Virus record (IMG/VR): IMGVR_UViG_3300035698_015393 | Coordinates: 1-36,993 of that record | Direction: 5' to 3' (one strand) | DNA: 36,993 nt | Source of the DNA: a virus | Shown here: in pieces, positions 7,197 to 29,384 of the stretch | How positions within the stretch are numbered: position 1 is the first letter of the stretch | Layout: each line of letters starts with the position of its first letter | Notes under the pieces: generated by a model | Database searches by the model: none | What the model was told of the DNA's origin: nothing | Seen by the model: only the letters and a program-made list of their open reading frames with translations | Program-made: the position numbers and the translations under genes

Positions 7197-9907
7197 TAGG
7201 CTATTTCTATCCTTCCATCCGGTAACCGCACTTGGTTCATTAACTTGTCCATCATTGCCCGGTGCTGAGCGTTCTGCTTGGATGGCAAGACTTTTCCTGC
7301 TCTAGCTGCCTGTGGCCACATCTTAGCTGCGTGGTAAGCTAACATCATGCTGATTACGCAGTCATCATTGAGGCCTTGGGCGGCTCCCGTCTTCGACTTG
7401 TCTTCAATATAGACAAACGAGCCAAACTCTTCCACGGTGGTGAGGTCATTGAAAACAATCTCGTCAGCCTGAAGGGCAGCCTGGAACTCTCTAATTAAGA
7501 GCCATTTGCTCGATTCGTTTGTGTTAAAGCCGTACTTACTTGATACGTTAGGCGACTCATCTAAATGTTGCTCCTGTTGGTAGTTCCTTGGGTATTGATA
7601 GGTTAATACCAACGCATCCTGCACAGCGTTGCCTGGGTAGTTTGTCTCTACGCAGATCATAGCGTTATTGTAGTACCGACCTAATTGGTCAGCAAACCGC
7701 GCCACGTCCACCACAGACCACTTAGCCCTAAATACGGCCACTTGCTCGAAAGGAATCCGATTGGACAGCACCTGCATCACTGACCAGTCTGTAGAGACGC
7801 CTGTGGAGGTGTCAATGCCTATGGTGTACTTGGTGTCCTTCTCTGGCTCTCCCCAAACCTTCAGGGGGCCATTTGGTACCGGCTCAAATTCAATTCCCAC
7901 TAAGAATCTCCGATTCTATGCAAGCTACGCAACGTCCTTTAGTATCCCACTAGGGGCTACTTCTTCTTTTACTTTCTCCATCCATTCCAGCAACAGTTTC
8001 CTGCTAAACACTGGGTTCCCACCAAAGATAACATAGTCACCGTAAATACGGGTGGCTCTTTCATCCTCTGGTAGGGTGGCAGCAAACGCCTCAACTGCCT
8101 CCATTGGCAAGTATGGGTTCTCTATCATACCTGCAAAGGTTCTAAATACGTCTTCTCGCTCACTAAGGGCCTTAAGCCAAGCCGTTCCACGAACTGGGGT
8201 GGCAGTCATCCACCATGGCCCTGCCATATCTACCAACCGTGCTTCCAGCTCGGAAAAGATGTCAGTCTTTTTCGGTTCCTCATCTATCCAGGCAAAATCT
8301 ATCTTAGCTGCCTGAAACTTTTCAGTGCCCATCTCAGTGGACTTGAAGACTATCTTCCATTCTCGCCCATCACCCTTACAAATCCAGATATTGTCCTGCT
8401 TGTAGAACTTGGCCTTAAACCTATTTGGTAGAAACTTCTCAAAGAGAGGTCGGTCGACGTCTCTTATCATAGCGTTATCTAAGCCAACTATCCAACCTAT
8501 TCCCTCATCTGGAAATTTCCTGAGCGGGTGCTGGCCTGTAACTGCGAGGCAGCATTCATAGGCTCCCATTTCACTATTGCATGTGGCAATAAAATCGCCT
8601 ACTAAGAAGCAATGATCTGGGTGGTCTATTTCAATACAATAGCATTTGTGCTTGCCTGTCGGTTCAATTGACCTTACAATCCTACTTGAATAATCACAGT
8701 TTCGCTTTGTCTTATCTGGCAATTTATGTTTCATCTCACAGGGAATGTCATATGCTCGCCATGTTACATTCCAATAAATGCCTACCTTGCCATTGTTAGT
8801 GCAGGTTTTTTTGACCCTCTCAAGTGTAGCTTTGCCACCTAAACTTTTAACTAATACCTGGAAATCTCTTGCAAGTTGCTCTGACTTTACAGTGAAGCCA
8901 TATAAGAATCCATCAGTATCAATTAATCCTGCAAGTAATTGCTTTCTTTGTTCTATAGTGCCCGCAAGGTATTCTAAGGGTATAAATTTACTTCCCGACC
9001 TAGTATCACGTAAACCTAGTTTAGTGAGTATGCTTTCAAGGCGTTTACTTCCTGTAAAACGATAAGATATTGCACTTGTTCCCTGCTTACTATCCTCAGT
9101 ACACCCCTTAACTATCGAAGCAACGCCCTCGATTACTCTGTGGGCCACATCTGGGTTATCTGAGGTGAACGTAATACATTTACTAAAACATCCATCACCT
9201 AAAAGAGCACCTAATGAATATGGATCAATTGGCACATTAGCCCTAGCACCGTATTCAACCTTTTTTGGACTTAACATCCTAGTTCTCATTGAAACTGAAT
9301 TATCAAGTCGCACTATAAGCTCTTTGATGGTTTTTCTGCGAATCTTTACTTTCTCTTGTTTGCCATGGTGGTTAAAATACTCGCCACTCCTGAGTTTTAC
9401 GGGGAACGGGTGAGAATCAGCAGATTCAACCGAGGCTTTATCACTAAATGTGGTTTTATAGCAATCAAGCTCCCCATTGTCGTACTTCTTAGTAACCCTT
9501 GCAGGGGCAGAGTTGCCTGTTTTAAGGTCATAGCTTAAGACGTAATCGTTTACACTGATATCTTTAATTGCTTTTTCTGTCCCATCAGCCATCCGCACAA
9601 GCTGAATATCCCGAATAGGCTTTCCGATACGATTTGCGCCTAAAGCTACTCTTCCTTTATGCTTAGCGGCCATAAGGAAGTCCCATTGCCAACTTGGACT
9701 TCCGTCGCTTCTTTTAAAGTAAGGTTCAAATTGATAAAAGGGCTGTTTAGCCCTCTCCAGAGTCGCCCTCATCTGGTTCTTGTTCTGCGGATTGCTCGCC
9801 CACTCCGTATTGGTTGCTAGTTGCCTGTAGGTCACTAAGGAGCTCCGCATCTGATGCACTGGCAAGGCTATGTGTGAGGTCGATTTCCTTTGGGGCGTCA
9901 TCGCCAT
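7196..9907 (-). CDS. terL: Terminase large subunit with intein and two in-frame TAG codons
   Basis: The motor that pumps DNA into the procapsid. The N-terminal ATPase has Walker A GANRIGK-S, split by an intein (residues 97-444), and Walker B FAWIDEEP near residue 539. After residue 660 the frame meets TAG, two codons, then TAG (7927-7925 and 7918-7916), and continues in frame into the RNase H-fold nuclease: YTIGIDTSTG, CVETN and the acidic LNDDCVISM. It may be decoded by readthrough as one chain. Alternatively the nuclease half starts at GTG 7900, which has GGAG 7 nt upstream in the loop of a hairpin (7903-7917), giving a split terminase. The start at 9907 has AGGA 8 nt upstream and overlaps the small terminase gene. 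Stop TAA. Confidence 0.85.
7903..7917 (-). promoter_or_regulatory. Hairpin presenting a ribosome binding site inside the terminase frame
   Basis: AGAATC and GATTCT pair around GGA, so GGAG sits in and beside the loop, 7 nt before an in-frame GTG at 7900. The same geometry is found before the ATG at 35919. This supports separate initiation of the nuclease domain. Confidence 0.5.
8576..9619 (-). other. Intein in the terminase Walker A loop (LAGLIDADG type, probably class 3)
   Basis: About 348 residues are inserted exactly between GANRIGK and the Ser that completes Walker A. The insert ends ...FIATCN with Ser as the +1 residue, as expected for protein splicing. It begins with Pro rather than Cys or Ser. 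Block B is near ADSHPFPV, block F reads CYCIEIDHPDHCF with Cys where most inteins have Asp, and Thr precedes the final CN. A non-nucleophilic first residue plus a block F Cys and block G Thr matches class 3 inteins, although the usual Trp is not obvious. Two LAGLIDADG motifs (LGALLGDG and LLAGLIDTDG) show a homing endonuclease domain. Confidence 0.85.
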
Positions 9908-10232
9908 ATATCTGTCCTAGCTTTTTTATTGCGCCCATTCGGGCTATATTATCTTCCACTTCAACTAGCTCTCCAGCTACGCATATCTTCCTGCTTGCTG
10001 TGGCTAGATGTATAAGCTCCCCTGCGTATTCGGCTACAGAGAAATCCTGAGCCTCCAGAGCATTAATAACCAAGTCCCTGTAAGCCTGCTTCTTCTTGGT
10101 TCGCTTAACAGTGTCTCTGGATGTGCCAACTATTTTGGCTGTTTCGTCTAATGTTTTTCCGTCCAAGGTATGTGCCTTAAATATTTTGAAGTCCCTGAGG
10201 TCCATGGAGTTTTCTGGTCGTTTAGCTGGCAT
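9747..10232 (-). CDS. terS: Terminase small subunit
   Basis: A 161-residue protein has an N-terminal helix-turn-helix (LDETAKIVGTSRDTVKRTKKK), a helical centre and an acidic, low-complexity C-terminus (EQEPDEGDSGEG). This matches small terminases, which recognise the packaging site and regulate the ATPase, and it directly precedes the large subunit gene, overlapping it by about 160 nt. The ATG directly follows the TAA of the upstream holin-like gene. Assigned from context, helix-turn-helix and size; the primary sequence of this family varies widely. Confidence 0.75.
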   Translation of the reverse strand: MPAKRPENSMDLRDFKIFKAHTLDGKTLDETAKIVGTSRDTVKRTKKKQAYRDLVINALEAQDFSVAEYAGELIHLATASRKICVAGELVEVEDNIARMGAIKKLGQIYGDDAPKEIDLTHSLASASDAELLSDLQATSNQYGVGEQSAEQEPDEGDSGEG

Positions 10233-10448
10233 TTAATTCACCACATGGGGCTGCATAGCCAATACTTTCATGAGTAGCCCAACACAAGCCGAGCTCATCA
10301 TGGCAAAGAGGAGGGTGATAACCCAACTTGGGCGACCTAGTAGGCGGTCTCGTATGTCGTTTATAGCTTCACCAAATTCTTCCATCTTTTTTTCAATGTT
10401 CTCTATTTTGGTTTTGTTCTCCACGCCAAGGGTGCATGAGTCTTCCAA
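10233..10448 (-). CDS. Holin-like small membrane protein
   Basis: The 71-residue product has an N-terminal coiled-coil (NKTKIENIEKKMEEFGEAI) and one strongly hydrophobic segment (WVITLLFAMMSSACVGLLM) near the C-terminus. This is the layout of XhlA-like haemolysin/holin proteins. Translation probably starts at TTG 10448, because a full AAGGAGG lies 5 nt upstream. The upstream gene ends in TAG 15 nt earlier in the same frame, so a fused readthrough product is formally possible but the strong ribosome site argues for independent initiation. A lysis role is inference from topology; no endolysin is adjacent. Confidence 0.45.
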   Translation of the reverse strand: MEDSCTLGVENKTKIENIEKKMEEFGEAINDIRDRLLGRPSWVITLLFAMMSSACVGLLMKVLAMQPHVVN

Positions 10449-10460
10449 AGGAACCTCCTT

Positions 10461-11012
10461 CTAATAGCCGTCTATGTCGCAGTTAATGCTTCCTGATGCT
10501 ACAGTAGGGAAGAGTACGATTATATATCCATCCGGACCCAAGTCAAACTCTAGTTGGCCAGTTGAACCCAGGCCGCCGCTTGCTCCAGCGCCTGCTGTTG
10601 CGCCATCCGTAATAGTTACTCCGCCTATTGTGGTGTCTGTGGTAGTTGTGATAGTATCCGCTATATACTCGCCTGCATCATTTGTTTGCGCCCCTGCCGT
10701 GACTACACCTATCCATCTCTGGTTCATTACTCCACCCTTGGTGCATGTCCATACTTCGGTATCTGGGCAAGTAACGTTATCGGCTGAGCCAGTGAAGGTT
10801 AATACGACGGCGTTCCACCGCTGTGTGATCTTTTTGGCATCGTCATGGAGATTTGACCAATGCCGAGTCCCTATGGCCATTGGGGCGTCTGTGGCTGCCA
10901 CTACGGCTGACCGCAGACGGACTACTTGCTGCCTACTGGTCTCTAGATAGGCTCCCATCAAAAGCGGGGTGAGCATTACTGCTAATAGTATGGTTGCTAA
11001 TGTTTTTCTCAT
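10461..11012 (-). CDS. Secreted or virion-associated protein with signal peptide
   Basis: This 183-residue protein begins with a clear signal peptide (MRKTLATILLAVMLTPLLMG). The mature part is Thr/Gly/Asp-rich with four cysteines in pairs (CPDTEVWTC; a later C near the end), suggesting an extracellular beta-rich fold. It is co-directional with the spike-like gene upstream, which also carries a signal peptide. I do not recognise the family. The start ATG has AAGGAAAATT upstream. It may be a surface protein made by the host cell under phage control or a virion accessory. Confidence 0.55.
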   Translation of the reverse strand: MRKTLATILLAVMLTPLLMGAYLETSRQQVVRLRSAVVAATDAPMAIGTRHWSNLHDDAKKITQRWNAVVLTFTGSADNVTCPDTEVWTCTKGGVMNQRWIGVVTAGAQTNDAGEYIADTITTTTDTTIGGVTITDGATAGAGASGGLGSTGQLEFDLGPDGYIIVLFPTVASGSINCDIDGY

Positions 11013-15243: not shown

Positions 15244-15681
15244 TTATCGCCTCGTTTTTCCATGTCTTTTGATGGCTATCAACTTTGGTTGGTCCTCTTG
15301 GTTAAGGTTCTTTGTTGGGGCTTGTAGGCACTTCGGTGCCTCAATGAGCTCTTCTCTAATGAACTGATCTAAGGCCATCATGGCCCGTGTGGCGAAGTGT
15401 GAGAGCTCCTCAAACCGTGCTTGGACTCCGCAGCCAGGAACGTCTGACATGGCATAGTAGCGGAAGCAATGCCTGAGTGCATGGTCAACTTCGCTGTTCA
15501 CTGGGATGTTGTGCCAATTCTTACTGCCGTACTTGGCAGCACCCATGCTCATTACTCTGGAGATTTCCAGGATGGCGTGGGGAGGGAGTTCTGTTATGCT
15601 TTCCGAGATGGTGGTTTGCTTTCCACCGAATTCATTAACTTCCACATTGTTTTCGCTGTCTTTTGTTAGATTTGCTGTCAT
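15244..15681 (-). CDS. DUF5664-like dATP/dGTP diphosphohydrolase domain protein
   Basis: The 145-residue protein has the signature order GAAKYGSKNWHNIP, VDHALRHCFRYY and FEELSHFATRAMMALDQF, seen in the DUF5664 family, annotated as an N-terminal dATP/dGTP diphosphohydrolase. The histidines and acidic residues suit a metal-dependent MazG-like all-alpha fold. It would shape the deoxynucleotide pool. No purZ-like or polymerase gene of the aminoadenine pathway is in the window. The start overlaps the sigma-like gene end by 47 nt. Confidence rests on pattern memory, not a search. Confidence 0.7.
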   Translation of the reverse strand: MTANLTKDSENNVEVNEFGGKQTTISESITELPPHAILEISRVMSMGAAKYGSKNWHNIPVNSEVDHALRHCFRYYAMSDVPGCGVQARFEELSHFATRAMMALDQFIREELIEAPKCLQAPTKNLNQEDQPKLIAIKRHGKTRR

Positions 15682-16411
15682 TTTTGCTTTCCTTCTTAGT
15701 TTCGGTTACTGGGTGGGCTACTGCGAACCCGCCTTTCTTTTCTTTGCTTATAATGCTCCAATCTATGGCTTCCCAGCCTTTTACCCATTTTTTGTGGTCG
15801 ACTGGTCGTGGTCTATGGCCTTTTCCCATTATTTTTAATTCCTTATTCATGTCTACTTCTCTGCATCTTTGAAGAAATTTTTTTATTTGCAGGCTTATAG
15901 TTGCTCTTTCGTAGCCTCTTTCTCTTGCTATTTCTTTTTGCTGCTTTCCTTCAATGAAATAACTAAACGCTGCATCCCATTCTTTTTGTGGTGCTTTGAC
16001 TTTTTCTAATATATGTTCTAGTAGGTCTTTCTGCTCTATCTGGATTGATGGGTCTATTGGCTTTGTTGGCCCTGCAATAAAGCTTAACACTCTGTCTTCT
16101 TTGCTGCCATTCTCTAAGCATTCTAAGTTAAAGTGATCAATTGGGGATACTTTTGGTACTTCTTCTTTTCTTACCTCATAAGCATTCCTGCATCCATAAG
16201 GCTTGCATCTGATTGCGTATCTGCTTATTGCCCAGCCAATTGTTTTAAATATAAAACATCCCTGGTTTTCTTTGAGTTTTTGTAGGTGTCCTGATGCCCA
16301 AACTTCATTAACTAGGTTATCTATATCTCCTTGGCGTTGAAGGTCTGTATTGCAAGCCCATCTTTTTTGGCACATATACCATAATTCCTTTTTTACTTCT
16401 TCATATTTCAC
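15635..16411 (-). CDS. Sigma-like transcription factor
   Basis: This 258-residue protein has a region 2-like part (DIDNLVNEVWASGHLQKL) near residue 30 and a region 4-like helix-turn-helix (EGKQQKEIARERGYERATIS) near residue 155, the layout of phage ECF-type sigma factors. Two cysteines (CKPYGC) lie between them. The C-terminal 70 residues are basic and Lys/Ser-rich, perhaps a separate tether. The start is GTG 16411 with GAGG upstream, directly after a 55-residue gene. It could redirect host polymerase to late phage genes; the promoters it would use are not identified. Confidence 0.55.
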   Translation of the reverse strand: MKYEEVKKELWYMCQKRWACNTDLQRQGDIDNLVNEVWASGHLQKLKENQGCFIFKTIGWAISRYAIRCKPYGCRNAYEVRKEEVPKVSPIDHFNLECLENGSKEDRVLSFIAGPTKPIDPSIQIEQKDLLEHILEKVKAPQKEWDAAFSYFIEGKQQKEIARERGYERATISLQIKKFLQRCREVDMNKELKIMGKGHRPRPVDHKKWVKGWEAIDWSIISKEKKGGFAVAHPVTETKKESKNDSKSNKRQRKQCGS

Positions 16412-22836: not shown

Positions 22837-22902
22837 GATTCCTAGTGGGAGTCGAACCCACGACTGCACGTCTACCGCTCTAGCCACTGAGCTACAGGAA
22901 TC
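22837..22902 (-). pseudogene. Truncated tRNA-like gene (possibly His type)
   Basis: The acceptor stem (with an extra 5' G and 3' C, a His-like feature), the D arm (GCTC/GAGC) and the T arm (GTGGGTTCGACTCCCAC) are intact. Only 15 nt separate the D and T arms where about 22 are needed, so the anticodon arm is incomplete. It is 66 nt long and probably non-functional as an adaptor. Confidence 0.55.
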
Positions 22903-22910
22903 AAGAGATT

Positions 22911-22982
22911 TGCGAGGGAGGGATTCGAACCCCCGACGGTCGGCTTATGAGGCCGCTAAGCTACCAACTGCTCTACCTCGCA
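22911..22982 (-). tRNA. tRNA-Met (CAT) or Ile2
   Basis: A complete cloverleaf: acceptor TGCGAGG/CCTCGCA, D arm, anticodon loop CTCATAA with CAT, and T arm GGGGGTTCGAATCCCTC. The outer anticodon-stem pair (G-A) is mismatched. Lacking the initiator 1-72 mismatch, it is an elongator Met or, if modified, Ile. Confidence 0.85.
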
Positions 22983-22990
22983 TTGAAAAA

Positions 22991-23066
22991 CACCCCTACT
23001 GGAATCGAACCAGCTTCTCTCTCGTTCCTAGGAATTCTTGAGGCTCTGCCATTGAGCTAGAGGGTC
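22991..23066 (-). pseudogene. tRNA-like gene with abnormal anticodon arm
   Basis: The D arm (GCTC AATGGCA GAGC) and T arm (CTGGTTCGATTCCAG) are good, and the acceptor pairs partly (G-G and C-A mismatches at the ends). Between them no 5-bp stem with a 7-nt loop forms; instead a palindrome TTCCTAGGAA occupies the place. The anticodon cannot be read. Confidence 0.45.
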
Positions 23067-23070
23067 TTAG

Positions 23071-23150
23071 TGTGTGAGGGGGCGTTACGTCCCAACACGG
23101 CAATCTGTCCGTCGCGACTTTACCGTGGGCTGCGCACATTAAGCCACACA
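23071..23150 (-). pseudogene. tRNA-like element with perfect acceptor stem only
   Basis: TGTGTGG pairs with TCACACA (7 bp). The inside has a GTCGCGAC palindrome and a CACGG/CCGTG stem but no TTC-type T loop or normal D arm. It could be a degraded tRNA or a different structured RNA. Confidence 0.3.
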
Positions 23151-23152
23151 AA

Positions 23153-23225
23153 CTCCCCCAGCTGGAGTCGAACCAACAACAGCCGACTTAACAGGCCGGC
23201 GCTCTACCAATTGAGCTACAGGGGA
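23153..23225 (-). tRNA. tRNA-Asn (GTT)
   Basis: A complete cloverleaf: acceptor TCCCCTG/TGGGGGA with two wobble pairs, D arm GCTC/GAGC, anticodon stem CCGGC/GTCGG with loop CTGTTAA (GTT), and T arm GTTGGTTCGACTCCAGC. Confidence 0.9.
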
Positions 23226-23232
23226 TTTAAAT

Positions 23233-23307
23233 GTTCCCGGCAAGATTCGAACTTGCAACCGTAGCTAACGGCCACCGCCTATTGGGTCTAATAGGTATTA
23301 CGGGAAC
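23233..23307 (-). pseudogene. tRNA-like gene with abnormal D and anticodon arms
   Basis: The acceptor (GTTCCCG/CGGGAAC) and T arm (GCAAGTTCGAATCTTGC) are perfect. The D region instead holds an inverted repeat (CCTATT/AATAGG), and the anticodon region is GGCCG TTAGCTA CGGTT with no variable loop. A loop reading AGC would be Ala, but I regard it as unsure. Confidence 0.4.
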
Positions 23308-23391
23308 TGTGCTAGGTCAGGGACGCTACTCCCAATGCGTGTCGCTTTCACCTAAGGCCAGCGCATGCTCTATGCTTATCGAGCAACCTAA

Positions 23392-23498
23392 GGCCAGCAG
23401 TAGGAGTCGAACCTACATCTCCCGGTAATGTGACCGGGGTCCTACCTTCGGCTTTATAGCTTAAGAATCAGCTTTATAGCCTCTTGGACGATGCTGGC
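23392..23498 (-). tRNA. tRNA-like gene (Val-type CAC?) with D-loop insertion
   Basis: Acceptor GCCAGCA/TGCTGGC, D stem GTCC/GGAC, anticodon stem CCCGG/CCGGG and T arm GTAGG-TTCGACT-CCTAC are all complete. The D loop is enlarged by about 30 nt built from two copies of GCTATAAAGC, and the anticodon loop is TCACATTA, eight bases instead of seven. It may be inactive, processed by an unknown mechanism, or a +1 decoding tRNA. Confidence 0.4.
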
Positions 23499-24710: not shown

Positions 24711-25364
24711 CTAAGCGGCATTTTTAATTATTTCGCCGCTTAGTAAATTGACTGTGAAATCTTTGGTGTTTGGAAACCCTCTCAAGTGTTTAGTGAACTC
24801 GCAGACCATGAGCCCAGCTGCTATGTTAGCACAGTATATGGTCGCTTTTGCTGTACATTGGCCCCCTTGAGCCTCTTCAGCTACAAATACGGTGTCCATG
24901 TAAGCCTGGTTGTCGACTATGCCCTCGGCGGTAATGATACGCATTACTTCGGCTGCCATTCGGCCGTCTATAAAAATTGACGAGTTTAGGCCTGCATGCT
25001 TCCAGATAAAGACCCGTGTGTCTATGCTGTCTACGCAGCAGAAGATCGTGGGGGCAAGCTCCATACCCTTCTTGTACTTTGTAGGGTGGGCAATTACTTC
25101 TAGCTCGCTATTGTTGGCTAGACAGTCGTTTCTGGTGGCCTCAACTTTCAGCTGACCCAATTGGCTCTCTTTGTAGCCCTGGGTGGCTAAGTTAGTGAGG
25201 TCTACGGTGTCGTGGTCAACCAGAATCAGGCTTTGGATACCTGAAGCAGCTAACTGGAGAGCAACTTGTCTCCCAATAGCTCCCAGGCCAATTATGGCGA
25301 CTGGGGTTTTGAATATTTTATCTGGTATTAATTCGCTTGTTCTTTCGTATCTAGATGTTTCCAT
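24711..25364 (-). CDS. E1/ThiF-like activating enzyme of the ubiquitin-like module
   Basis: The 217-residue protein has the ThiF/E1 nucleotide-binding fold: GLGAIG at residues 26-31, the acidic end of the second strand in LVDHDTVDLTN (D50), LGQLKV, a CVDSIDTR strand (D112-115), and a Cys in AQGGQCTAKATIYC (C170), at the position of the catalytic Cys of E1-like enzymes. It would adenylate the modifier C-terminus and form a thioester. It lacks the extra domains of MoeB or eukaryotic E1. The ATG at 25364 overlaps the JAB gene end, with GGAAGGGG upstream. The stop is TAG. Confidence 0.85.
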   Translation of the reverse strand: METSRYERTSELIPDKIFKTPVAIIGLGAIGRQVALQLAASGIQSLILVDHDTVDLTNLATQGYKESQLGQLKVEATRNDCLANNSELEVIAHPTKYKKGMELAPTIFCCVDSIDTRVFIWKHAGLNSSIFIDGRMAAEVMRIITAEGIVDNQAYMDTVFVAEEAQGGQCTAKATIYCANIAAGLMVCEFTKHLRGFPNTKDFTVNLLSGEIIKNAA

Positions 25365-26130
25365 ATAGTCCCCTTCCTGGGTATCTTTTAAGAATGTCTT
25401 TGATTTCTGCGCTGATTTCTTGATTGTGCCAGATTTCCATTGACATTTGATCGTAAGCTTCTTCGTTGATTTCTCCAGCTATATGGGCTTGGTGGACTGC
25501 CTCTTCGTAATCTAGTTGGGTGAAGTAGTCGCTATTCAAATCCAAGTTTGGCATCGTCTTGTATTCATAATCGCTTACTAGTCCTGACTGAGTTTGTTTT
25601 ACCCAAGACTTAGTTGTGACTGCAAGGATGTCTTCTTCAACATTTTCTTCGAATTCTTCTTTCCATGCCTCTGGGTTAGTTGGCGTTGCGTCGCTGTAAT
25701 CAATTTCGACATCCATAATTGTGTCTACTTCGGGGAAGCCGTGATGTAGTTTTGCGTATATGTCACCTTTTTTGGTAACAATAAGCATTATGGCCCAATC
25801 ACACTCAGCCAACGTTCTATCGAAGTTGGTATTATCAAGCCCAGATGGCGTCTTGCAGCTTCCTGGGTGGGTGTGCATCCATATTCGGTAGAAGTTCTCC
25901 AGTGGTAGGCCAAGGTCCACCATGTCCTGCACGTAGTCAGCTTGGCTGTCATCGTCCAATTTAACGGTGACTGAGGTTACTGTTTGCTTGCATAGCCTGA
26001 AGTCCTCTACATATAGAGGGTCTTGTGGGTGTGCTATACAAAACGCACCGTACTCGTTCTTTGATAGTGAGTTTAGGAACATTATCTTGTTCCATGCGTA
26101 TCCACTTATTGTTAATACTGGTTTAATCAC
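25351..26130 (-). CDS. JAMM/JAB peptidase of the ubiquitin-like module
   Basis: The N-terminal half of this 259-residue protein is a JAB/MPN metalloprotease with the complete motif: E26 in KNEYGAF, then H86-T-H88-P-G, S96 and D99 (HTHPG...PSGLD), spaced as H-x-H-x10-D. It would process the modifier's C-terminus or remove it from targets. The C-terminal 120 residues are acidic and helical, with no recognised domain. The start is GTG 26130, with AAGGGAAACA upstream; the first 8 nt overlap the E2-like gene, so the two are translationally coupled. Confidence 0.9.
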   Translation of the reverse strand: MIKPVLTISGYAWNKIMFLNSLSKNEYGAFCIAHPQDPLYVEDFRLCKQTVTSVTVKLDDDSQADYVQDMVDLGLPLENFYRIWMHTHPGSCKTPSGLDNTNFDRTLAECDWAIMLIVTKKGDIYAKLHHGFPEVDTIMDVEIDYSDATPTNPEAWKEEFEENVEEDILAVTTKSWVKQTQSGLVSDYEYKTMPNLDLNSDYFTQLDYEEAVHQAHIAGEINEEAYDQMSMEIWHNQEISAEIKDILKRYPGRGLYGNI

Positions 26131-27208
26131 TTGTTTCCCTTTCGATTCTAGATTGTTCTAGTGTTTCTTCTCTAATTCTTGTCTCTTGTTGACTTGCGCA
26201 TTCTTCGCATACGCCCTCTTCTATGCAACTACTACAAAGCTCCTTGCCACATGTTTCACAGCATATTATACAGTTTATACACATGTTTTTGTTGCATACT
26301 GAGCAGTGGTTCACACAGCTATCACACAGTCTTGCTCCGCAGTCTATACATGATCGAGAGCATTGTTTGCATATTATTTTATTGCAGCCTTGGCAAGTGC
26401 CTGAATGGTTTTGGCAAATGCAATCATCGCAGTCCTCGCAGTATCTTGAGCATTCCTCGCACATTACAGTTTCACAATCCATGCAGTAACGCATGTTATC
26501 GCATTCGGAACAAAAGTGGTTGTTGCAGAATGGGCATAGTGTATTTCTACAACCGCATTCTAGGCAAGATTCTGCAAACCAGCTATTTATTTGCCTGTAT
26601 GGGTTCCTGCTTTTCTCATTTGAAAGGACTGTTTTTGCTAGTTCGAATACTTGGTGAAAATCTCCCATTACCAGGGCTTTATAGGCTATTTTTTGTGTGT
26701 CCCCTAAGCACAGCTTGCCTTCTGAGACGACTGGGTGGACATACCTGGCTCCACTTGCCGGGTGTGGGTCTAATGCGAATACTTCCACTCTTGGGATTGG
26801 TTCGTTTTCCGTAGGAACAGAGTGGTTTACTATGGATATTTCAAATGGGCCAAGATAAACACCCTTTAAGGTCAGCGGTTTAGTTTGGCAGGCTATTCCA
26901 TTGGCAATTGGGTAAGCGTTGTGCCATTCTACTGATTTTCGTATTCCTTCAGCCAATTGGCCTTTTCTTGGTATTGTCTCATAGTTAATTGATTCCAAGA
27001 AATCTCGTGATGTATTTATGAAGCAAAACAGGTTGTCTCTATTACCTTGGCCTGTATTATAATAGCTTTCAATGTTTCTTTTAATTTTTTTAAGTTCTTG
27101 TTGAACTCTTTTTATGTATCCGTTGTATTTTGTTACTTTATCTTCAGTTGAATAAAAACGTTCAAACACCTTAGCTTTTCTTACTGCTTGCTGTATTCTT
27201 TTATTCAT
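26123..27208 (-). CDS. E2-like enzyme fused to a cysteine-rich (RING/zinc-type) domain
   Basis: The 361-residue product begins at ATG 27208 (AAAGGG upstream). Residues 1-75 are a basic helical region. Residues about 95-200 look like an E2 (UBC) fold: LGPFEISI and RVEVFALDPHP strands, then HPVVSEGKLCLGD, with H158-P159 and C167 at the positions of the E2 HPN motif and active-site Cys. Residues about 215-337 contain some 34 Cys in repeated C-x2-C and C-x4-C units, zinc-binding, reminiscent of stacked RING or B-box fingers. No His-rich ligand set fixes the subclass. The likely role is transfer of the modifier, the zinc tail acting like an E3. Confidence 0.75.
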   Translation of the reverse strand: MNKRIQQAVRKAKVFERFYSTEDKVTKYNGYIKRVQQELKKIKRNIESYYNTGQGNRDNLFCFINTSRDFLESINYETIPRKGQLAEGIRKSVEWHNAYPIANGIACQTKPLTLKGVYLGPFEISIVNHSVPTENEPIPRVEVFALDPHPASGARYVHPVVSEGKLCLGDTQKIAYKALVMGDFHQVFELAKTVLSNEKSRNPYRQINSWFAESCLECGCRNTLCPFCNNHFCSECDNMRYCMDCETVMCEECSRYCEDCDDCICQNHSGTCQGCNKIICKQCSRSCIDCGARLCDSCVNHCSVCNKNMCINCIICCETCGKELCSSCIEEGVCEECASQQETRIREETLEQSRIERETSD

Positions 27209-27281
27209 GGGAGCCCTTTCAAAAGCTGAAGGAAGGGTAACGTAATAAGCCACCCTTCCCTCTAGTTTCGGTTGCCGCCCT

Positions 27282-27536
27282 TTACAGTGCGCCTTCCATC
27301 TTCTTATACGTGACTGTCACGTTATCATCCTCGCAGAGGGGCTGAGTGATGAGAATGGCATCTGCGTCTGCCAAGCGCTCATCGGCACAGACGGCCTGGC
27401 CGTTAACCCGGATGAAGAAATCCTTGGGCTCTCCGCCGATCTTATCCTTAAAAACGTTCTCGATTGTGCTCTCATCACTTACATAAATCTTGTCTGCGAA
27501 TCCTGAGCCCTGGTTGCTTACTAAATGTACGTACAT
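27282..27536 (-). CDS. Ubiquitin-like modifier
   Basis: The 84-residue protein has a beta-grasp/ubiquitin-like layout: a first beta-hairpin (MYVHLVSNQGSGFADKIYVSD), a helix (TIENVFKDKI) and beta-strands (DFFIRVNGQAV, DAILITQPLCEDD, NVTVTYKK). It ends KKMEGAL rather than GG. From memory, the PRTRC system protein C family has a very similar ending (EGA) and a matching R-V-N-x-x-x-V region; this was not checked. The ATG follows AAAGGGAAAA. It is the first gene of the module; the next gene starts 74 nt on. Confidence 0.75.
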   Translation of the reverse strand: MYVHLVSNQGSGFADKIYVSDESTIENVFKDKIGGEPKDFFIRVNGQAVCADERLADADAILITQPLCEDDNVTVTYKKMEGAL

Positions 27537-27909: not shown

Positions 27910-28572
27910 TTAAACTTCGAAGCTTATTAATTCATTTAGTAGCGCGAAAGCCTTCTTGCAGTCGCCTAATAATAGCTCATCTATGATTTTGATGGCCAAT
28001 TTTGTAACTTCTTTAGCTTCAGTAACCCGCGATTCATTATCAACCATATCATCAATGTTTGGGAAAATCCACAGGTCTTTGAGCTTATAGGTAGCGTAAC
28101 ATGAGTTGTCTGGAATAGCTTCCTTGTTAAATTCTACTTTCCCATCGCAAATTAACTTCCATTGTTGTTTTTGAGTAAGGTCTGTGCCTTTCACTGTGTG
28201 TTTTAGTCTGATTTTTCGATATAGATCGTCTTTGATTGCGAGGACACGATTCTCTAGATAGTCTTTTTGTGTCTGGGTCATTGCTTGCTTTGGTTCTTGT
28301 TCTATTTCTGGCTTAGTGATATTCTTTCCGAATATTCCTATATGGATTGGCACTAACGCGATATCATCGCCTTTTCTTAGTATGTAATTGCTTTCGATGT
28401 GCAGGTTATCGACAGTTGCTCGGAAGTCCTCCAATTTGCGATCTGGGAGTTCGTCCTGCATATATTGATTGAGTGTGTAGTCTGGGTCAGTTTTTTCTAC
28501 TCTAAACCGCCATAATTCATTAGTCATAGTTATTAAGTTTGTTCGTTCCCAGTTTTTCATTTTATAGCTCAT
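27910..28572 (-). CDS. Protein of unknown function (220 aa)
   Basis: From ATG 28572, overlapping the previous stop by ATGA, the protein has mixed charged alpha/beta sequence with PIHIGIFGKNITKPE and a Lys/Glu-rich helical middle. No domain is recognised. It is the last gene before the ubiquitin-like module and is tied to the preceding gene by coupling, so it could belong to the early region or be a target. Confidence 0.6.
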   Translation of the reverse strand: MSYKMKNWERTNLITMTNELWRFRVEKTDPDYTLNQYMQDELPDRKLEDFRATVDNLHIESNYILRKGDDIALVPIHIGIFGKNITKPEIEQEPKQAMTQTQKDYLENRVLAIKDDLYRKIRLKHTVKGTDLTQKQQWKLICDGKVEFNKEAIPDNSCYATYKLKDLWIFPNIDDMVDNESRVTEAKEVTKLAIKIIDELLLGDCKKAFALLNELISFEV

Positions 28573-29384
28573 GCTGCTATCCCTTCTTCCCACCCATCAT
28601 AGACTGTATCGCGAAAGTCTATGTTTGTAGCCTTATTAAGCTTTCTGGGTATAGCTGCGGCTGCTGTATGGCCAACCTGGTTTATTGATAGGGGTTCAAT
28701 GGCAACTTCAACCCAGTCGCCATTTACATCTGTTACTTCAAATATGCCTACTCTGTGCTCCATAAATTCTGGTATTTGCCACTCAGCGTCTTCATAGAAG
28801 GCTAATCCTTGCAATTGGATGCTGTCGTACATCTCCAAGTTGTGGCCCGGTAGCTTAACAGAGAGCCAGTCCTTGTCTATTTCGAGTTCGGTTACTGGCA
28901 ATGGATTGCATTCATGCCACATCTGGTTATACTCTTCTAGACCACGATGATCTGCTACTGTTTTCTCCACACCCTGCATCTCCTCTTCCATAGAGAGGTT
29001 AAAGAGGTATGGGTCTTCAAAGAGGTTAACGTCCTCTATGTACTCAAGCTTGTATGGCTCTTCGAAGGCATCCATGAGCCTTGATTGGTACTCCAGCGAA
29101 GTTATTTCGCCCAACTGGAAGGCTTCTCTGGCCAGTTGGCCAAAGTTAGTGACCTTGGCACGCTCTGAGCCAAGGTAGACAAAGCCATCCATCACTCTAG
29201 CCTCTGCCATAGCTAATGGTAGGGCTGCGTCGCATACTTCGAAGACAGCGGGTAGAGCCCAGTCGAGTATGGCCAAGTGGGCAGGTGAGCAAGGCCTGGG
29301 CGTTACACGGCCAACTATGTGCTGGTCCATGGTAGGTCTTTGGTAGTCCGCTGATATTAGCTGTTCTGTTGCAAAATGGTCCAT
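28569..29384 (-). CDS. Acidic protein of unknown function (271 aa)
   Basis: The start is ATG 29384 with AAGGAG 7 nt upstream. The protein is strongly acidic, with segments such as YIEDVNLFEDPYLFNLSMEE and a C-terminal beta-rich part (DSIQLQGLAFYEDAEW, VGIFEVTDVNGDWVEVA). No catalytic motif is visible. A long hairpin (29405-29445) lies just upstream in its leader, and a tRNA-like RNA precedes that, suggesting special regulation. Confidence 0.6.
   Translation of the reverse strand: MDHFATEQLISADYQRPTMDQHIVGRVTPRPCSPAHLAILDWALPAVFEVCDAALPLAMAEARVMDGFVYLGSERAKVTNFGQLAREAFQLGEITSLEYQSRLMDAFEEPYKLEYIEDVNLFEDPYLFNLSMEEEMQGVEKTVADHRGLEEYNQMWHECNPLPVTELEIDKDWLSVKLPGHNLEMYDSIQLQGLAFYEDAEWQIPEFMEHRVGIFEVTDVNGDWVEVAIEPLSINQVGHTAAAAIPRKLNKATNIDFRDTVYDGWEEGIAA

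Follow-up and report, generated by a model that had tools for sequence, protein, structure and literature searches.

A four-gene cassette in a phage genome fragment predicted to encode a ubiquitin-like conjugation system of a Planctomycetes family

We report that a phage genome fragment carries four consecutive minus-strand genes (24711-27536) which, in transcription order, appear to encode a ubiquitin-like protein (Ubl), an E2-like enzyme, a JAMM peptidase and a ThiF/E1-like enzyme. We put the probability that they form a self-contained, reversible Ubl conjugation system at roughly 0.7, a reading that concerns biochemistry and not biological role. The window analysed here is the whole 36,993-base IMG/VR virus record IMGVR_UViG_3300035698_015393. 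Matches to capsid, portal, terminase, DnaB-type helicase, exonuclease and SSB proteins are encoded in the record, and its identity as a phage fragment is well supported by the matches of the capsid, portal, terminase and replication genes; no terminal repeat was seen in the 36,993 bases. Since the window is a fragment, accessory genes of the cassette may be missing from it. Elsewhere in it, at 15635-16411, a phage RNA polymerase sigma factor family is weakly matched (1.8e-4). The initial annotation had proposed a complete cassette of these four components in a phage genome, and sequence, synteny and predicted structure (weakly for the E2) back the proposal: all four open reading frames lie where it had placed them, and the last three overlap as it had said, by 8 bases between the E2 and JAMM (JAB) genes and by 14 between the JAB and E1 genes. 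The features are as follows.

22837-23498, minus strand: tRNA-like cluster of four genes (four by Rfam; two intact by ARAGORN, Met and Asn)
24711..25364, minus strand: E1/ThiF-like adenylyltransferase, 217 aa, single domain, GLGAIG, C170
25351..26130, minus strand: JAMM/JAB metallopeptidase, 259 aa; E26, H86-x-H88, S96, D99
26123..27253, minus strand: E2-like enzyme, 376 aa counted from a GTG; coiled coil, E2 core and CxxC array
27282..27536, minus strand: Ubl, 84 aa, ubiquitin-like beta-grasp, ending ...KKMEGA then L
27910..28593, minus strand: possible associated protein; Ubl-like stretch at aa 37-85 and a C-terminal part of about 140 aa, no Gly terminus

The cassette is flanked on one side by the tRNA-like cluster and on the other by genes for a 3D-domain protein and SSB. 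The neighbouring tRNA genes had been described as remnants; the cluster does adjoin the module, but two of its four genes are intact and the term does not hold. The protein at 27910-28593, whose gene lies just upstream of the Ubl gene, was matched by a Ubl profile built without the window (1.3e-07 in a search space of the window's 42 proteins) and weakly by Pfam ThiS (0.086); judged by its position, it may be a member of the cassette.

As single sequences the window's proteins differ in how readily they can be assigned. The E1 is secure (Pfam ThiF, 1.5e-25) and the JAB protein has a weak Prok-JAB match (0.0033), while the Ubl and E2 gave no convincing database match; the assignment of these two consequently rests on their relatives, both proteins being conserved at the corresponding position in dozens of loci. 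Relatives were located through homologs of the E1; position beside these, not annotation, identified the initial relatives of the Ubl, E2 and JAB proteins, so that agreement among the Ubl, E2 and JAB proteins is largely independent evidence. Profiles built from these relatives without the window recover its proteins at 1.4e-20 (Ubl), 3e-52 (E2), 1e-52 (JAB) and 3.7e-75 (E1), values that refer to a search space of the window's 42 proteins. Judged by these comparisons, the conservation of the four genes together is beyond chance.

The residues expected of the two better-recognized enzymes are in place. The GLGAIG motif and C170 singled out in the initial annotation are present in the E1, and C170, which is invariant among relatives, is the predicted thioester cysteine; the Arg of the usual N-x-x-R-Q motif is absent, the window reading NLATQ. 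The full JAMM motif claimed for the peptidase is likewise confirmed: E26, H86, H88, S96 and D99 are invariant among relatives, the motif occurs in 34 of 34 proteins, and a five-sequence profile is closest to archaeal Rpn11 (2.1e-9). We predict that this enzyme handles both the processing of the Ubl and its deconjugation.

The E2-like protein requires more argument. According to the homolog alignment an internal ATG at 27208 is a likelier start than the GTG, and the motif reported as H158-P159...C167 is correct when counted from that ATG; it corresponds to H173-P174...C182 from the GTG, the numbering used here. An N-terminal coiled coil precedes the core bearing this motif, and a CxxC array occupies approximately aa 230-352. 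H173, P174, C182, G184 and W225 are invariant in an alignment of 26 sequences, and HP...CxG is found in 34 of 34 E2s. The AF2 model (pLDDT 72, with low confidence in places) has a helix, a four-strand sheet, the HP...C motif and two helices, and its best Foldseek match is human UBE2H (E 0.066, prob 0.90), with several other E2s lower. Because that match is weak, the assignment leans mainly on the invariant HP...C, the order of secondary structure elements and the operon. A comparison of the E2 profile with PDB sequences returned zinc-finger and coiled-coil matches only, and was set aside. The CxxC array is present in all aligned window-type E2s except that of locus L008, with a mean of about 22 Cys past the catalytic Cys; the tail matches B-box, RING and FYVE folds weakly, as expected of a Cys-rich sequence. 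We suggest that the array may bind zinc and may have an E3-like role.

For the Ubl, the AF2 model (pLDDT 67) has the order E-E-H-E-E-E and matches ubiquitin and BfUbb in Foldseek with prob 1.00, which places it, with modest confidence, as a beta-grasp fold alongside ubiquitin. The initial annotation had staked its proposal on predicted E2 and beta-grasp folds; the second was obtained, and the first only weakly. Among 25 aligned Ubls K79 and G82 are invariant and position 83 is Ala in 23, and a wider set conforms to K-[IVM]-x-G-[A/G], with Ala in 33 of 35 and Gly in two. A variable tail of 0-35 residues follows the motif in these 35 proteins. The Ubl of locus L119 stops exactly at ...KIEGA where the others carry tails, which suggests that the mature protein ends in Ala. 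K-[IVM]-x-G-Ala with its variable tail thus looks like a predicted JAMM maturation site, and in the window's Ubl the cut would probably fall after Ala83. The tails of L147-L150 are unusually long (28-35 aa) and have a W[EA][PQ]DN stretch in common; these could be coding, or could be read into the E2 leader.

From these features we infer a scheme, including every catalytic step, the order of transfer, the binding of zinc and the part played by the array. The JAMM enzyme would trim the Ubl precursor at ...KKMEGA/L so that it ends in Gly-Ala. The E1, which is ThiF-like and probably forms a homodimer (as MoeB and ThiF do), would adenylate the Ubl and form a thioester with it, most likely on C170, and the Ubl would be handed on to the E2 at C182. 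The CxxC array of the E2 may be an integral module that recruits substrates or acts like an E3. Removal of the tag would also fall to the JAMM enzyme. We note that a modifier ending in Gly-Ala would be an unproven substrate for such an E1-E2 cascade.

Outside virus collections the nearest relatives of the cassette are in Planctomycetes metagenome-assembled genomes. In a sample of one Planctomycetota class a close E1 was found in 32 of 397 genomes, and E2 and JAB genes adjoin the E1 in 22 of 24 small loci; four close E1 copies, each within a whole cassette, occur in a single Planctomycetes genome. A sample of the phylum yielded the E2 in 15 of 392 genomes, in some cases on contigs of several megabases and in up to five copies, and the four-gene order was kept in all ten chromosomal copies examined, as it is in L007, L008, L087 and L088. 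A quick E1 tree joins the window and the viral contig L007 to the Planctomycetes clade (SH-aLRT 99), and we are unsure whether the two, both long branches, lie inside or beside it. The best explanation of these sequence relationships is a family centred on Planctomycetota chromosomes and here carried by a phage. A search for the window's capsid protein in 149 Planctomycetota genomes, run with no positive control, was empty.

The surroundings of the chromosomal copies bear on what the cassette might do. DUF2958, integrase, HerA-like and mobile-element genes are among their neighbours, and two loci lie beside type III restriction-modification genes or GajA/AriA-like and GajB-like (Gabija/PARIS-like) genes. 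A "defence island" setting is a lead, drawn from seven loci that were picked for large genes and had no background set. An AAA+ ATPase gene adjoins the cassette in eight of the ten chromosomal copies of the phylum sample and in L007, which is 167 kb long; its Pfam label is just AAA, and we take it to be Ycf46-like. At L008 a gene for a Clp-like AAA+ ATPase, with AAA matches, lies one small ORF past the E1 (7962-10481). It is conceivable, although we consider it doubtful, that substrates destined for an AAA+ unfoldase are tagged with the Gly-Ala-ended modifier by an E2 and zinc-array ligase combined in one protein; no gene for such an unfoldase was found in the window fragment.

With regard to role, the reading we favour, at somewhat less than even odds, is that the cassette is mobile cargo which, in the manner of chromosomal defence systems, would protect the phage or the infected cell from competitors. 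The initial annotation had suggested instead that the modification may serve the phage. Given that the nearest relatives are chromosomal, that several are on mobile-looking islands and that two are beside defence genes, service to the phage is no more likely than a role as defence or competition cargo.

Alternatively, at perhaps a little under one chance in three, the cassette might serve the phage itself by tagging proteins of the host or the virion to aid takeover, replication or assembly, a role with which the distant phage modules are compatible. Single-protein scans of viral sequences with the window's E1, E2, JAB and terminase gave no close relatives, and tblastn of the E2 and JAB against phage records was empty. 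An E1 profile found E1 relatives on 170 viral contigs with one search pattern, and a JAB gene is directly upstream of the E1 gene in most of the 80 contigs kept; distant modules recur in unrelated phages. Around key motifs, the E2 and Ubl of marine phages show a relationship to the window type (P 1.7e-5 and 1e-4), and in 23 of 40 marine loci, a count that overstates the independent cases as several loci are near-identical, the small ORF just upstream of the E2 has GG within a few residues of its end, compared to 48 of 1116 similar-size ORFs overall. In crAss-like Steigviridae and Flavobacterium phages there is a JAB-E1 pair with upstream E2-like genes and a primase and/or uracil-DNA glycosylase gene nearby, a setting among DNA-replication genes that would fit a phage function. 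Against this, most of the window's closest relatives are on chromosomes, and a profile comparison detected no relation between the crAss-like E2 and Ubl and those of the window family; we treat the crAss-like group as having a similar module, with homology taken only for the E1 and JAB. Also in keeping with service to the phage, a Xanthomonas jumbo phage encodes a Ubl that ends in GG, an E2-like protein whose tail is rich in Cys, and an E1; a search for a JAMM gene in this jumbo phage, run with no positive control, was empty. A rule that a Ubl ending in GG needs no JAMM gene was rejected, since marine phages with GG-ended Ubls keep JAB.

It is improbable that the cassette serves a ThiS/ThiF-type pathway, for a sulfur carrier or a small molecule, and not protein conjugation. 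Pfam ThiS matches 16 of the 25 Ubl members and the single-domain E1 resembles MoeB, ThiF and MccB, but nearly every locus has an E2 with the invariant HP...C and a JAMM peptidase, rhodanese, thiazole synthase and molybdopterin genes were not recognized nearby, and Gly-Ala with a variable tail is unlike the exposed Gly-Gly of sulfur carriers. A counter-defence device aimed at defence proteins of the host, for example the host's copies of this system, is similarly improbable: Planctomycetes do carry as many as five copies with which a divergent phage relative sharing the Gly-Ala end could interfere, but the phage keeps the full cassette with all catalytic residues and not the JAMM part alone.

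Bacterial Ubl cascades are already known, and the initial annotation had named Bil systems and PRTRC clusters as systems of this kind; as these are described, the window-type combination differs from both on the features tested. Bil shares the same four components, and its DUB processes a Ubl precursor, but BilA is a two-domain Ubl, BilD has an inactive and an active adenylation domain and BilB uses a CEHH motif (PMC11354881). In contrast, the window's Ubl has one beta-grasp in 84 aa and ends in Gly-Ala, its E1 has one ThiF domain in 217 aa, and its E2 carries a coiled coil and a CxxC array; in the 26-sequence alignment there is no conserved E/H/H past the Cys, and the invariant His precedes it. 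BilD matches the window's E1 at only 5.6e-4. PRTRC operons, which we take to be Iyer type 6d, also have Ubl, E2, JAB and E1 as separate genes. The type 6d E2 lacks the upstream His, and the JAB of that type carries an additional N-terminal domain (PMC1779556), whereas window-type E2s keep that His in all 34 proteins. Furthermore, Pfam and NCBIfam gave zero matches for any E2 member (26 E2s against NCBIfam), and PRTRC_ThiF scores the window's E1 at 20.7 bits, far below its cut-off of 144.75. Membership of either group is thus not supported.

Other systems are similar in part. Type II CBASS Cap2/Cap3 and 6A-MBL have E1, E2 and JAB parts, and the window's E1 matches PADLOC E1-E2 models at about 1e-14; in those systems, however, the E2 and E1 are fused, and CBASS conjugates a CD-NTase, while the window's E2 and E1 genes are separate and neither a CD-NTase nor an E2-E1 fusion was found among the proteins scanned near the module. 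The Caldiarchaeum-type archaeal system (Ub, E1, E2, small RING, Rpn11) is likewise a complete cassette with an Rpn11-like JAMM enzyme, and its Rpn11 is the one reached by the JAB profile at 2.1e-9, but it has a separate RING E3 in place of an E2-fused CxxC array, and a different terminus. Phage-encoded Ubl and JAB are known from lambdoid TAPI/TAPK tail assembly (PMC1779556), which differs in lacking E1 and E2 and in its structural-gene context. A literature search of incomplete coverage found no paper describing the window-type family.

If the conjugation reading is true, this cassette would add a bacterial and phage family of Ubl conjugation systems, with a modifier end other than Gly-Gly and possibly an E2 and E3 in one protein. 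It would also mean that phages carry complete E1-E2-DUB-Ubl cassettes, beyond the known Ubl and JAB tail-assembly genes. The proteins modified by such systems could be sought by using the multi-copy versions in Planctomycetes.
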